From Desulfuromonadaceae bacterium (lineage in GTDB: Bacteria > Desulfobacterota > Desulfuromonadia > Desulfuromonadales > Geopsychrobacteraceae), in NCBI GenBank assembly GCA_013138655.1, contig WTCI01000114.1:1-6644 (forward strand): a stretch of DNA of 6,644 bases. Reading direction: 5' to 3'. Below are positions 2,118 to 6,644 of the stretch, one piece after another. The position numbers were made by a program, and so were the translations under genes. Positions within the stretch are counted from its first letter, which is position 1; the number at the start of each line of letters is the position of its first letter. The notes under the pieces were generated by a model that was not told the origin of the DNA, did not search any database, and saw only the letters and a program-made list of their open reading frames with translations.

Positions 2118-3740
2118 GTGCGATCAATATTCATTGGAGCAGTGTTTCTACTATTTTCCCTGTCGGCTTGTGATAACCCGCAGGAAGCCAGTCTTCCCGG
2201 GGTTGAAAAGGTCTTGACGCCTGAGTACGGTGATACCTTCATTGAGGCATCCATCGGTGATGCCAGTACTTTGCTGCCGGTGTTGGCCTCGGATTCCGCT
2301 TCCAGCGATATCAATGGTCTGCTCTATAATGGGCTGGTTCGCTACGACAAAAATCTGGTTCCTGAAGGTGAACTGGCTGAATCCTGGGAAATTTCCGCAG
2401 ATAATCTGACGATTACCTTTCATCTGCGTAAAGGGGTCAAATGGCACGACGGTGCACCCTTTACGTCTGCTGACGTAAAATTCAATTACGAACTTTATGT
2501 CGATCCGAAGACGCCGACGGCCTATGCCGAATCCTTTAAACAGGTGACCCGTGTCGAAACGCCTGATCCGTACACTTTTGTTGCACATTATGAAAAACCT
2601 TATGCCCCGGCGCTGATCAGTTGGGGGATGTCGGTGCATCCGAAGCATTTGCTTGCGGGGCAGGAGGTGACCAAAAGCCCACTTGCCCGCAAGCCAATCG
2701 GGACCGGACCGTATAAGCTGGCAGACTGGCAGGCCGGGGAGAAGATTGTTCTCGAAGCGAATCCCGATTATTTTGCAGGACAGCCCTATATCAAACGGGT
2801 CGTCTACCGGATCATTCCCGATATTTCGACGCAGTTTCTGGAGCTACAGACCGGCAGCCTGGATTTTATGGGGCTTGCGCCGCTGCAGTTTGATCGCCAG
2901 ACGGATACGCCGGCATTTCGGCGGCTTTATAATAAGTTCCGTTATCTCAATTTTGGTTATACCTACCTCGGTTACAATCTTAAGCGGCCGCTTTTCCAGG
3001 ATAAAATGGTTCGCCAGGCGCTTGCGTACGCCATCAACAAAGAGGAAATTATTGAGGGTGTGTTGCTTGGCTATGGTGCTGCCGCTACCGGGCCTTACAA
3101 GCCCGACACCTGGGTCTATAATGCGGATGTACCGAGATATGACTACAACCCCGAGAAAGCTCGCGAACTGTTTCAAGCTGCCGGCTGGATCGATTCAGAT
3201 GGGGACGGGGTGCTGGATAAGGATGGGCGGAAGTTTGCTTTTACTATCGTCACCAATCAGGGGAACGATCTGCGCTCCAAAACCGGTGAAATTATTCAGC
3301 GACGCTTCAAGGACGTTGGTGTTGAGGTTAAGTTGAGAGTGATTGAGTGGGCGACTTTTCTTAAAGAGTTTATCAATCCGGGTAATTTTGATGCAACGAT
3401 TCTCGGCTGGACGGGTGGCCCGGAGCCTGATCAGTTCAATATCTGGCATTCGAGCAAAATCGGTCCACGGCAGCTCAATTTTATCGGTTTTAAAAACGCC
3501 GAAGTTGATCAGTTGCTGGAAGAGGGGCGGCGAGTTTTCCCTCCGCAACAACGTAAAGCCTATTATGATCGTTTTCAGGAAATTCTGGCTGAAGAGCAAC
3601 CCTATACTTTTCTCTATATCCCGGAAGCTCTACCGGCCGTCTCAAAACGTTTTCGCCGGGTCGAACCTGCTCCGGCCGGGATCCGCTATAATTTTACCCA
3701 ATGGTTCGTTCCTGCGGCGGAACAGAAATATTCTCGATAG
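2118..3740 (+). CDS. ABC transporter peptide-binding lipoprotein (SBP_bac_5, DppA/OppA type)
   Basis: The 540-aa product is the substrate-capturing subunit of a di/oligopeptide importer. Residues 1-18 form a lipoprotein signal peptide with lipobox LSAC and acylated Cys18, so it is membrane-anchored rather than a free periplasmic protein. The family signature lies at about residues 86-122 (LAESWEISADNLTITFHLR, then KGVKWHDGAPFTSADVKF). GTGPYKL near 195-201 and QALAYAINKEEI near 303-314 are also typical, and the length is usual. Residues 359-367 (DSDGDGVLD) form a calcium-loop-like DxDxDG turn seen in many members of this subgroup. The start is GTG 2118 with GGAG six bases upstream, inside a small dyad. 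It is followed after 77 nt by the permease gene, with a hairpin in the gap. Peptide is the default substrate of the family; the actual ligand (peptide, nickel, or other) cannot be read from sequence. Confidence 0.93.
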   Translation: MRSIFIGAVFLLFSLSACDNPQEASLPGVEKVLTPEYGDTFIEASIGDASTLLPVLASDSASSDINGLLYNGLVRYDKNLVPEGELAESWEISADNLTITFHLRKGVKWHDGAPFTSADVKFNYELYVDPKTPTAYAESFKQVTRVETPDPYTFVAHYEKPYAPALISWGMSVHPKHLLAGQEVTKSPLARKPIGTGPYKLADWQAGEKIVLEANPDYFAGQPYIKRVVYRIIPDISTQFLELQTGSLDFMGLAPLQFDRQTDTPAFRRLYNKFRYLNFGYTYLGYNLKRPLFQDKMVRQALAYAINKEEIIEGVLLGYGAAATGPYKPDTWVYNADVPRYDYNPEKARELFQAAGWIDSDGDGVLDKDGRKFAFTIVTNQGNDLRSKTGEIIQRRFKDVGVEVKLRVIEWATFLKEFINPGNFDATILGWTGGPEPDQFNIWHSSKIGPRQLNFIGFKNAEVDQLLEEGRRVFPPQQRKAYYDRFQEILAEEQPYTFLYIPEALPAVSKRFRRVEPAPAGIRYNFTQWFVPAAEQKYSR

Positions 3741-3817: not shown

Positions 3818-4804
3818 ATGCTGCGCTATATCTTCAAACGTCTGCTGATACTTGTTCCCTTGTTGTTTGGGATTACCCTGATCTCTTTTGTGGTGATTCA
3901 TTTGGCTCCGGGGGAACCGACCGATATGCAGACGCAAATGAATCCGCAGGCCGGCACTGAACTGCAGGAACGGTTGCGGGTACAATACGGGCTTGATCAG
4001 CCGCTCTATGTACAATACGGGAAATGGTTGTCGCGGCTGGTTCAGCTCGATTTCGGGGAGTCTTTCGCCACAGACCGACGCCCGGTTTTTGACAAGGTGG
4101 TGGAGCGTTTGCCGGTGACAATGCTGCTTAATGTCCTGTCAATCTTATTGATTCTTGTGGTTTCGATCCCCTTGGGGATTGCTTCTGCCGTCAGGCGCAA
4201 TTCGGGATTTGACCGGGTCACCACGATGCTGGTTTTTGCCGGTTTTGCCATGCCTTCTTTCTGGCTGGCCCTGTTGTTAATGGACTGGTTCGGTGTGCGG
4301 CTGGGTCTTTTGCCGATCTCCGGTCTGAAATCTCTCGGTTATGAATACCTGAGCTGGAGTGGACAACTGCTCGACCGTTTGGCGCACTTGATCCTGCCGG
4401 TTTTTGTTTCTGCTCTCGGCGGGGTGGCTGGATTCTCTCGTTATATGCGTTCAAATATGTTGGAAGTGGTGCGGCAGGATTATATTCTTACGGCGCGTGC
4501 CAAGGGCCTGTCGGAAAAGACCGTCATCTATAAACATGCTTTACGGAATGCGCTGTTACCGGTCATCACTATCCTTGGGTTGTCAGTCCCTGGACTGATT
4601 GGCGGGAGTGTCATATTCGAAACCATCTTCGCTATTCCGGGGATGGGTAAGTTGTTCTACGATGGTGTCATGATGCGGGATTATCCGTTGATTATGGGGA
4701 TTCTGGTGATGGGTGCCGTGCTGACCCTGCTTGGTAATCTGCTGGCCGATATCTCCTACGCGATTGCCGATCCACGCATCCGCCACGGACAACAGGAGGG
4801 CTGA
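3818..4804 (+). CDS. Peptide ABC transporter permease, DppB/OppB type
   Basis: The 328-aa inner-membrane subunit forms half of the translocation pore. The N-terminus [18 protein letters not shown] is typical of the family and fixes the start, although the ribosome binding site is weak. About six membrane segments are visible near residues 9-30, 100-122, 135-158, 188-206, 248-272 and 290-316. The EAA loop that docks on the ATPase subunit is clear at about 225-248 ([20 protein letters not shown] then ALLP), followed by the conserved [12 protein letters not shown]. The large loop after segment 1 ([20 protein letters not shown]) is also characteristic. Its partner is the DppC-type permease, but the two genes are separated by an unrelated GspE_N gene, whereas they are normally adjacent. 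The weak ribosome site and upstream hairpin suggest lower expression than the binding protein. Confidence 0.94.
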
Positions 4805-4849
4805 ATGTTCGTGTGTTGGAAAACTGTCCGGGAGAATTTATGCAACTGA
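4794..4849 (+). other. Strong Shine-Dalgarno plus 14-codon mini-ORF overlapping the next gene start (possible leader peptide)
   Basis: AGGAGGG at 4794-4800 is the best ribosome binding site in the window. It is followed by ATG 4805, immediately after the permease TGA, which opens a 14-codon frame (MFVCWKTVRENLCN, stop 4847-4849) that runs past the ATG of the GspE_N gene at 4840. Ribosomes ending here would stop 7 bases beyond that start, allowing coupling. The alternative is that AGGAGGG serves the GTG at 4813 in the GspE_N frame, but that spacing (12 nt) is long. A real peptide is unproven. Confidence 0.2.
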
Positions 4850-5454
4850 AAGCGAACCGACTTGGAGAAATGTTACTGGAAGCAGGTCTGATCGACCAGT
4901 TCCAGCTCGATTCTGCGCTGTCAATGCAGCGGAATCTGGGAGGACGGATCGGTAGTGCGCTGGTCAAACTTGGTTATCTGCCGGAAGAGACGATGATGGA
5001 ATTTCTGGAATCGCAGGCGAAATTTTCTCGTATTTCGCTGGAAGATTTAGAAATTCCTCCGGAATTAATCGCAATTTTGCCGGCAGAAAAATTGAAGTAT
5101 TTGCTGGTGGTGCCGATTGAGTTACGTCATTCAGGGTCAGAGAAGATTCTCCGCGTGGCGATGACTGATCCGACCAACCAAAACCTGATTAACGAATTGC
5201 AGTTTGCGAGCGGCTGCCGGGTGCTGCCGGTGCTGGCCTCGGAAAATGAAATTCGTCAAGCCTTGAAAAATAATCTGCCGGCTGAACCGCTGCAGTCGCC
5301 CGAACCTCCAGCTGAAAATTTCATTTTGGAACAACAGGGCGTCGACTTCAGTGATCTTCCGGGTGATGATGTGCGCGTTGATCGTTTGCTGGAGGTTTTG
5401 CAGGAGAAGGGCATTTTGAGTGCGATTGACGTAGAACGGATAAAGTTTGGTTAA
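4840..5454 (+). CDS. Stand-alone GspE/PilB N-terminal (MshEN, T2SSE_N) domain protein, probable c-di-GMP receptor
   Basis: The 204-aa product matches the N-terminal regulatory domain of type II secretion and type IV pilus ATPases (GspE/PilB/MshE) but ends before any Walker A/B ATPase core. Motif 1 (residues 7-30) has R7-L8-G9, L12-L13, G16, L17-I18, L23, L27, Q30. Motif 2 (36-59) has R36-I37-G38, L41-V42, G45, L47, L56, Q59. They are joined by five residues (RNLGG). This is the two-motif pattern known from MshEN domains to bind cyclic di-GMP. The rest of the T2SSE_N domain follows (about 72-142, with IPPELIAILPAEKLKYLLVV and the conserved VAMTDPTN). Then come a Pro/Glu-rich linker (146-160) and a C-terminal helical piece (181-201) that resembles a third, degenerate half-motif. 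The chosen ATG has GGGAG (4830-4834) five bases upstream; GTG 4813 would add nine residues but lacks well-spaced support. The protein is cytoplasmic (no signal peptide). It sits between the two permease genes, suggesting a link to the transporter; this is inference. Confidence 0.88.
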   Translation: MQLKANRLGEMLLEAGLIDQFQLDSALSMQRNLGGRIGSALVKLGYLPEETMMEFLESQAKFSRISLEDLEIPPELIAILPAEKLKYLLVVPIELRHSGSEKILRVAMTDPTNQNLINELQFASGCRVLPVLASENEIRQALKNNLPAEPLQSPEPPAENFILEQQGVDFSDLPGDDVRVDRLLEVLQEKGILSAIDVERIKFG

Positions 5455-5456
5455 TT

Positions 5457-6311
5457 ATGACGATCCAGCGTAGTGTATTTATCCGTGATGTTGTTTGGCA
5501 ACGCCTGCGCCATAATCGGATGGCTATGGTCGGTGGTGCGATAGTTCTGTGTATGTTTTTGATGGCCGCAGTTGCCTCTTTAGTCTGTGCCGATCCTTCC
5601 GTCATTGATGTCGGACAACGACTGTTGCCGCCGAGCTGGGAACACCCCATGGGCACGGATGATTTAGGTCGTGGTGTGCTGGTGAGGATGTTGTACGGTG
5701 CGCGTATCTCCTTGCTGGTCGGTTTTGTCGCCGTCGGTGTCTCCAGTTTGATCGGTATTCTGTTCGGTTCTCTGGCAGGGTATTACGGTGGCTGGATTGA
5801 TGCGTTAATCATGCGGTTTGTCGATATCATGCTCTGCTTCCCGACTTTTTTCCTGATTCTCGCGGTGATTGCTTTTCTGGATCCATCAATCTGGAATATC
5901 ATGATCGTCATCGGCCTGACCAGCTGGATGGGAGTAGCGCGGCTGATTCGTGCCGAGTTTCTCAGTCTGCGACAACGTGATTTTGTGCTTGCCGCACAAG
6001 CACTGGGGGCCTCTGATCTGCGTCTGATATTCCGGCATATTCTGCCGAATGCTCTTTCTCCGGTGCTGGTTTCGGCCACCCTGGGTATCGCCGGGGCCAT
6101 TCTGACGGAAAGTGCCCTGTCCTTTCTCGGGATTGGGGTGCAGCCGCCCACGCCTTCCTGGGGAAACATGCTGATTACCGGCAAACAGACCCTTGGCAGC
6201 GCCTGGTGGTTGTCGGTGTTTCCCGGTGTTGCAATTTTAATTACCGTACTGGGTTATAATCTCCTCGGTGAGGGGATCCGTGATGCCCTGGATCCGAGGT
6301 TGAAAGAATGA
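5457..6311 (+). CDS. Peptide ABC transporter permease, DppC/OppC type
   Basis: The 284-aa inner-membrane subunit is the second half of the pore. The short OppC_N region (about 11-45: VWQRLRHNRMAMVGGAIVL then a membrane segment) is followed by the conserved HPMGTDDLGRGVLVRMLYGA (63-82). Further membrane segments lie near 84-108, 120-142, 147-165, 203-224 and 254-275. The EAA loop is at about 179-199 (AAQALGASDLRLIFRHILPN) and is followed by the family hallmark ESALSFLGIGVQPPTPSWG (218-236). ATG 5457 lies two bases after the preceding TAA with only a weak ribosome site, so translation is probably coupled to the GspE_N gene. The ATG of the next gene overlaps its TGA (ATGA at 6308-6311). Length is at the short end of normal for the family; nothing appears missing. 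Confidence 0.94.
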   Translation: MTIQRSVFIRDVVWQRLRHNRMAMVGGAIVLCMFLMAAVASLVCADPSVIDVGQRLLPPSWEHPMGTDDLGRGVLVRMLYGARISLLVGFVAVGVSSLIGILFGSLAGYYGGWIDALIMRFVDIMLCFPTFFLILAVIAFLDPSIWNIMIVIGLTSWMGVARLIRAEFLSLRQRDFVLAAQALGASDLRLIFRHILPNALSPVLVSATLGIAGAILTESALSFLGIGVQPPTPSWGNMLITGKQTLGSAWWLSVFPGVAILITVLGYNLLGEGIRDALDPRLKE

Positions 6312-6644
6312 CCGCCGAACAGTTTTTAGCTTCTCGTTTTAAAGCCCTGGCAGATGCAGATTATCTAGCAGTGTATGCTGGCTATCATGTTGATGCGCCT
6401 TTTTTGCAGCAGTTCCCGGACTCCGCCGATTATTGTCAGTTTGCCGAGCAGCAATTGAGTGGAATAGTGGTGAAAAGCTGGAGATCTCTGTGCCAACGAC
6501 AGCTTGCTGACGGCAGCGAGGAACATCTCTTGTTGATGGAACTGTCTGTTGACGGGGTTTCTCAATGTTTTTACGAGCTGGCTTTGCTGATTGAGACAGC
6601 TGAAGGTTGGCGTTATCACTCTGCGCAAAAACTCGGCGGGGATG
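6308..6644 (+). CDS. YchJ-like NTF2-fold protein (3' partial)
   Basis: An open frame starts at ATG 6308, overlapping the permease stop by 4 nt, with GAGG (6296-6299) eight bases upstream. It runs through the end of the window (112 codons visible). The visible sequence begins MTAEQFLASRFKALADADYL, then YHVDAPFLQQFPD, and ends YELALLIETAEGWRYHSAQK. The layout of helices followed by beta strands, ending in 'GWRY.S.QKL', resembles the central NTF2/SnoaL-like domain of YchJ-family proteins. The N-terminal SEC-C zinc motif (CPCGS) of full YchJ is absent; a C-terminal one cannot be excluded because the gene is cut. Function is unknown. Coupling to the permease suggests co-expression but not necessarily a transport role. 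The family call is tentative. Confidence 0.7.
   Translation, partial: MTAEQFLASRFKALADADYLAVYAGYHVDAPFLQQFPDSADYCQFAEQQLSGIVVKSWRSLCQRQLADGSEEHLLLMELSVDGVSQCFYELALLIETAEGWRYHSAQKLGGD

Follow-up and report, generated by a model that had tools for sequence, protein, structure and literature searches.

A stand-alone MshEN protein is encoded between the two permease genes of a Dpp/Opp-type ABC importer, and we propose that it is a dedicated regulatory subunit, a predicted c-di-GMP sensor that would control this importer and thereby the uptake of, probably, peptides. Judged from the sequence, this function appears reasonably probable. The window, i.e., the whole stretch of DNA that was analyzed, is an entire contig of 6,644 bases from a draft genome of 2.45 Mb that is 93% complete.

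The importer and the MshEN gene

The following features were assigned in the window:

2118..3740, plus strand: family-5 solute-binding protein (Pfam SBP_bac_5, 3e-103; lipobox-like LSAC, read by eye)
3818..4804, plus strand: DppB-type permease (Pfam BPD_transp_1, 4e-44, and N-terminal domain)
4840..5454, plus strand: gene for the stand-alone MshEN protein, 204 aa (ORF list, Pfam, NCBIfam)
4840..5454, plus strand: parts of the MshEN protein, i.e., N-subdomain with the motifs, alpha/beta C-subdomain, disordered linker, and C-terminal helical hairpin
4858..4929, plus strand: c-di-GMP motif I, R7-Q30 (sequence; positions mapped to PMC5013675)
4945..5016, plus strand: c-di-GMP motif II, R36-Q59 (sequence; positions mapped to PMC5013675)
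5371..5448, plus strand: C-terminal helical hairpin, residues 178-203 (AlphaFold2 and conservation in distant stand-alone relatives)
5457..6311, plus strand: DppC-type permease (Pfam BPD_transp_1, 1e-35; OppC_N, 3e-11)

The SBP_bac_5 protein and the two BPD_transp_1 permeases, one of them with an OppC_N domain, place the importer in the Dpp/Opp type by family, and its substrates are probably peptides. The nearest NCBIfam equivalog models for the permeases were of the nickel and oligopeptide types and, among those listed, all matched below the cut-off. The binding protein and both permeases are shared with known Dpp/Opp importers (PF00496, PF00528, PF12911), whereas the MshEN gene is additional and DppD/DppF-type ATPase genes are absent from the window. 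Near the operon, no ATPase of this type with more than 100 bits was found in the loci of 16 relatives (up to 20 kb). The draft genome contains one OppC_N permease, the DppC-type protein of the window, and 17 ABC-ATPase matches, including one adjacent pair of Dpp size. In the 6 kb examined, this orphan dppD-dppF pair (G000:C278; L057 4149-6009) is not accompanied by a permease gene, but the contig ends right after the ATPases and a neighbor beyond could be missing. The pair probably energizes the importer of the window. The same genome yielded 20 GGDEF matches, and therefore, c-di-GMP is presumably made. A small gene at 6308-6643, which overlaps the dppC stop by 4 nt and has no Pfam or NCBIfam match, is retained 3' of dppC in many relatives.

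An earlier note on this DNA had described a free-standing MshEN frame with both c-di-GMP motifs, tightly spaced between DppB- and DppC-type genes and lacking an attached ATPase domain. Each of these points was borne out. The frame at 4840-5454 is present on the plus strand with the motifs at the bases listed above, the neighbors were identified by their Pfam and NCBIfam matches, and the gaps are 35 nt from dppB to the MshEN gene and 2 nt from its stop to the dppC start. A purine-rich GGGAGA is found a few bases 5' of the ATG at 4840; an alternative in-frame GTG start at 4813 is possible, yet less likely. MshEN (PF05157) was the sole Pfam match of the 204-aa protein (E 9.4e-15; 54.8 bits versus a curated cut-off of 23.1). 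The T2SSE ATPase domain (PF00437) by which membership in the PilB/GspE secretion ATPases was judged was absent in the Pfam search, and the frame stops at residue 204. The NCBIfam model NF053729 ('c-di-GMP_motif, MshE-related') matched residues 7-59 (E 2.3e-17), and the PilB and NfrB models matched as well, far under their cut-offs.

A truncated PilB pseudogene was ruled out by the intact frame, the conservation in 80 genomes, and the separate score range: among the matches listed, PilB-size frames (mostly 566-692 aa) reached at most 175.3 bits, and the stand-alone orthologues scored apart from them. A plasmid-borne gene was also rejected, as only three weak matches were obtained among 72,556 plasmids, none of which covers 80% of the query. 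Public sources, where they name stand-alone MshEN proteins at all, use 'PilB' or 'hypothetical'. For example, P0003, P0010, P0121, and others carry the public name 'type IV pilus assembly protein PilB', and their listed Pfam domains are MshEN, in some cases together with PF14332, without a secretion-ATPase domain.

Conservation of the c-di-GMP motifs and predicted structure

The protein has the two 24-residue motifs with a 5-residue spacer that are expected of a c-di-GMP-binding MshEN domain. Motif II differs from that of the V. cholerae protein by two conservative changes, I37 for Leu39 and M52 for Leu54. Conservation was analyzed with 58 distinct importer-linked sequences of the order, which do not stand for every one of the 80 genomes with an orthologue. 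Leu8, Gly9, Leu23, Leu27, and Gly38 were invariant (58/58), and Gln30 was kept in 57, Leu56 in 56, and Gln59 in 52 of the sequences. The arginine positions yielded less uniform results: at the first, 26 sequences have R, 27 have K, four have M, and one has L, and at the second, 39 have R, 13 have Q, and six have L. When R or K was demanded at both places, the two motifs were complete in 38/58 sequences of the order, in 13/15 of a set comprising sequences from outside the order plus L116, and in 2/7 other MshEN proteins of the window's genome.

PMC5013675 describes Gly and Leu changes in MshE as costly and cites earlier changes of Arg9, Asp12, and Gln32 that altered the affinity at most five-fold; its Discussion nonetheless terms Arg9 and Gln32 important. 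According to PMC11731258, the GSPII-B domain of PilF, which carries Lys and Leu at the arginine places, has a c-di-GMP affinity of 6 nM, which becomes about 500 nM when Gln is changed to Glu. Loss of the arginines is thus not strong counter-evidence to binding, because a domain without them is such a tight binder. Losses of Gln59 may be strong counter-evidence in one sub-clade (L053, L054, L071, L073, L076, L078). In these six sequences motif II is eroded, with Arg replaced by Leu and Gln by Ser, Thr, Ala, or Asn, and the second half-site is probably weakened. In addition, Gln30 was lost in three of the four orthologues situated away from the importer, all three from one family.

An AlphaFold2 model, built on a 68-row alignment, had a mean pLDDT of 83 and a pTM of 0.64. 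It contains a four-helix N-subdomain and an alpha/beta C-subdomain (pLDDT block means 81-95 for residues 11-150), as expected of an MshEN fold, followed by a low-confidence linker (residues ~151-175) and the C-terminal hairpin. The LxxL...KG pattern of the hairpin recurs among stand-alone relatives of other families, and we infer that residues 178-203 are a candidate docking element. With Foldseek, the best PDB match was the MshE-c-di-GMP complex 5htl (E 2e-10, TM by target 0.67), followed by the PilF domain 9g1w (TM by target 0.76) and then by more PilF and PilB domains.

The motif data bear on the possibility that the protein is an importer subunit or assembly factor without c-di-GMP control, in which the MshEN fold would serve as a docking or scaffold module only. 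Gene linkage is silent about a ligand, the R/K rule leaves 20 sequences of the order without two complete motifs, and XpsE is a published MshEN protein that has lost binding (PMC5013675). Nevertheless, the invariance of the five Leu and Gly contacts, the near-invariance of Gln30, and the tight binding by a PilF domain with Lys and Leu at the arginine places argue for a retained ligand site, and we consider a pure scaffold rather unlikely.

Placement of the gene within the order

The distribution of the gene was surveyed in 136 genomes of the order, with an orthologue defined as a stand-alone MshEN protein of at least 180 bits. Orthologues were present in 80 genomes, which excludes an accident of a single genome; this count omits frames below 180 bits that are shorter than PilB (e.g., in G117, G131, G044, and G127), some of which may be cut by contig ends. 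Orthologous dppC genes were found in 126 genomes and dppB genes in 120. In 75 of the 80 cases the MshEN gene is directly upstream of dppC. The full order dppB-MshEN-dppC, with dppB within 1.4 kb, is present in 52 genomes, and in 23 others dppB is elsewhere or past a contig end, which in some of them may merely reflect contig ends. One genome has dppB-MshEN alone, and in four the MshEN gene is located elsewhere (G063, G064, G070, G135). A dppC gene without an MshEN gene was found in 46/136 genomes, including 13/13 dppC-bearing genomes of family f18, and ten genomes have neither gene. Because so many genomes keep dppC without it, the MshEN gene is dispensable in the lineage.

The neighborhood of dppB and the MshEN gene is not uniformly compact. 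A gap of 0.8-1.3 kb separates them in 8 of the 52 genomes, and where this gap was read, it contains an extra gene, OmpA-like or epimerase-like (named by eye); extra genes of the operon were seen at this position and not between the MshEN gene and dppC. The gaps from the MshEN gene to dppC are 14-488 nt (match coordinates). The two genes also adjoin one another in three well-assembled genomes in which dppB is distant: about 19 kb in the complete genome G055, 5 kb in G041, and about 800 kb, on one contig, in G074. In G128, dppC occurs at two sites, both accompanied by an MshEN copy, but with a contamination rating of 6% for this bin, the sites may come from two strains.

A DppC profile scan of named genomes yielded 80 loci. 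In 18 of the 27 closest, dppC is immediately preceded by an MshEN gene (E <= 1e-6), including the loci of Malonomonas rubra, Pelovirga terrestris, a Geopsychrobacter sp., and a Desulfuromusa sp. Among the 53 more distant loci, this was the case, at the same threshold, in one, L116 of an unplaced bacterium, which has the order dppB-MshEN-dppC-dppD. In line with the earlier note, which called DppB- and DppC-type genes normally adjacent, an MshEN gene thus does not usually separate them.

Relatives beyond the order

A class-wide search of 277 genomes (E <= 1e-49) gave 80 matching genomes, all of which belong to the order. For the phylum, an evenly drawn sample of 395 genomes was analyzed. A profile built from sequences of the order alone detected 12 further genomes, and in ten of them the best copy is beside dppC or dppD (11 when the second copy of G178 is counted). 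A wider profile, partly built from these matches and hence biased towards them, detected 41 genomes (E <= 1e-48). Eight of these belong to the order, ten have frames of PilB size, and the frames of the other 23 are shorter; of these 23, 22 are informative because the frame of G405 is truncated at the end of its contig. In 21 of these 22 genomes outside the order, from nine families, the MshEN relative adjoins a Dpp/Opp gene; the importer genes were called with profiles from permeases of the order and ATPases of the window's genome, which show family and not substrate.

The arrangements are diverse. The order dppB-MshEN-dppC, sometimes followed by dppD-dppF, occurs in f45, f35, and G222 of f37, and dppB-MshEN with no dppC next on the examined stretch in f46 (two genomes) and G251 of f37. 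MshEN-dppD-dppF is found in f68, f108, and f117, and two MshEN genes followed by dppD in f54. In f64, for the second copy of G178, the order is MshEN-SBP-dppB-dppC-dppD; the best copy of G178 stands alone, and G214 has an MshEN gene without a Dpp/Opp neighbor. In L147 and L153 of f54, the two tandem MshEN genes upstream of dppD differ from one another, and the first, with 363 and 413 aa, exceeds the second in length. All 12 genomes of the class to which f45, f68, f108, and f117 belong have the gene, 4 beside dppC and 8 before dppD-dppF. The MshEN gene thus accompanies the permeases in operons that lack ATPase genes and accompanies the ATPases in other families.

Together, 76/80 orthologues in the order adjoin dppB or dppC, and with the 21/22 cases outside it, the placement is conserved far past a single genus, which the earlier note had named as the support to look for. 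The link is wider than the description 'between permeases', as the gene is elsewhere also found before ATPase or binding-protein genes. Among the genomes sampled, importer-linked stand-alone MshEN proteins occur in nineteen family-level groups.

Controls and phylogeny

No Dpp gene was found beside the seven further MshEN loci in the genome of the window (0/7; flanks of at most 1.5 kb, two of them cut by contig ends) or at the two PilB loci that were opened. One of these further loci, L056 (1697-7392, contig C192), encodes a second MshEN protein of 379 aa. It is followed by a gene for 265 aa, a gene for a GGDEF protein, and MlaE and ABC-ATPase genes, so that another MshEN gene, together with a cyclase, adjoins an ABC transporter. 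At L055 (2288-2998, reverse-complemented locus, contig C227), MshEN is followed by a response-regulator-like receiver sequence (by eye). MshEN-ABC fusion proteins were not found; the search with MshEN before DppD gave three proteins, two of which are PilB-like by Pfam (PF00437), and the third, P0221 (479 aa), has MshEN only.

In the tree, f45, with the gene between the permeases, and f68, f108, and f117, with the gene before the ATPases, fall into one supported clade (100/98). Three long-branched MshEN proteins of the window's genome fall inside the importer-linked group, and a topology holding all importer-linked MshEN proteins together was not rejected (AU p 0.31). In a larger tree, the split from the MshEN proteins of the window's genome had a support of no more than 80/59, and a single origin of all importer-linked MshEN proteins is thus one possibility among others. 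We infer that the pattern, together with the clade of f45, f68, f108, and f117, fits one ancestral SBP-B-MshEN-C-D-F operon that was variously broken. Part of the linkage pattern could also stem from prolonged joint inheritance of such an operon.

Proposed function and alternatives

In the most parsimonious interpretation, the MshEN protein would be a cytoplasmic regulatory subunit, and the role proposed for it would comprise five steps. First, it would be made together with the permeases, for which the gene order and the 2-nt spacing are observed and co-translation is likely. Second, the four-helix N-subdomain is predicted, from the conserved contacts and the fold, to take one c-di-GMP between the motifs. 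Third, the N- and C-subdomains would move relative to each other upon binding, as has been described for GSPII-B of PilF. Fourth, the protein may dock on the cytoplasmic side of the importer, possibly with its C-terminal hairpin, and bind there to DppC, to the DppD-DppF ATPases, or to both; these partners are suggested because the MshEN gene travels with their genes. Fifth, ATP-driven uptake would be altered. An increase is more likely than a decrease because c-di-GMP is reported to promote the function of MshE and NfrB, although the direction is a guess. Counter to the proposed role, the gene is dispensable in the lineage, a few orthologues lie away from the importer genes or are not followed by dppC, motif II is eroded in one clade, and no fusion of MshEN with an ABC protein was found.

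The signal might also flow in the reverse direction, so that the importer reports the peptide supply to the c-di-GMP network; the MshEN protein would then not gate transport but act locally as a buffer or reporter. Some transporters double as sensors, and the many GGDEF matches of the genome would provide such a network. In contrast, Pfam revealed no cyclase or phosphodiesterase domain in the 7 ORFs of the window or in the 5 neighbor genes of relatives that were scanned, and the characterized MshEN proteins in PMC5013675 and PMC8669469 are effectors, which makes a reporter quite improbable. Another machine, a type IV pilus or secretion ATPase, could be the target of a protein that is merely co-transcribed with the importer, since MshEN is commonly part of PilB/GspE and the closest sequences among solved structures are pilus ATPases. 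Yet in several arrangements and families the gene accompanies components of a single importer type, and action on a pilus ATPase, an alternative raised in the earlier note, found no support among the gene neighbors seen; we regard it as very unlikely. A passenger gene held by slow operon turnover without a functional tie to the importer is highly improbable, for although the upstream TPR and lipoprotein-type genes are likewise conserved in place, the MshEN gene stays beside dppC after operon break-up and is found with the ATPase genes in other lineages.

As a c-di-GMP-sensing subunit, the protein would combine features of several known systems. It shares the fold, the two 24-residue motifs with spacer, and the Gly/Leu contacts with V. 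cholerae MshE and with the MshEN domains of PilB/PilF, but has no ATPase domain, is encoded with an ABC importer, and has an extra C-terminal helical hairpin. In E. coli NfrB, MshEN also occurs outside pilus and secretion ATPases and controls a membrane enzyme, but there it is fused to a glycosyltransferase and controls exopolysaccharide synthesis, not import (PMC8669469). Functionally, the closest parallel is the regulation of BusA and OpuC by c-di-AMP via CBS domains. The osmolyte ABC importers OpuA/BusA and OpuC are controlled by this cyclic dinucleotide from the cytoplasmic side, with the CBS domain in the ATPase subunit (PMC10243994), whereas in the present case a separate MshEN protein would act on a peptide-type importer, and the control is predicted. 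The MshEN domain and, for c-di-AMP, the control of an ABC importer by a cyclic dinucleotide are therefore already known. A link between MshEN and an ABC importer was not found in open-access titles and abstracts; the supplementary tables of PMC5013675 may list such proteins.

The extension to a family of stand-alone MshEN proteins in the phylum is more tentative, and we place it somewhat short of an even chance: these proteins may be c-di-GMP-sensing subunits of peptide ABC importers and provide a direct post-translational route from the motile/sessile decision to import. A function is thereby suggested for a protein group now named 'PilB' or 'hypothetical', and it is testable in the cultured anaerobes of the family, Malonomonas rubra, Desulfuromusa kysingii, Pelovirga terrestris, and Geopsychrobacter electrodiphilus. 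So far, c-di-GMP is known mainly for its action on pili, flagella, secretion, exopolysaccharide, and transcription. If the proposal is true, the c-di-GMP signal would be tied directly to feeding, as c-di-AMP is to osmolyte import, and the signal for swimming or settling would likely also govern what the cells take up.
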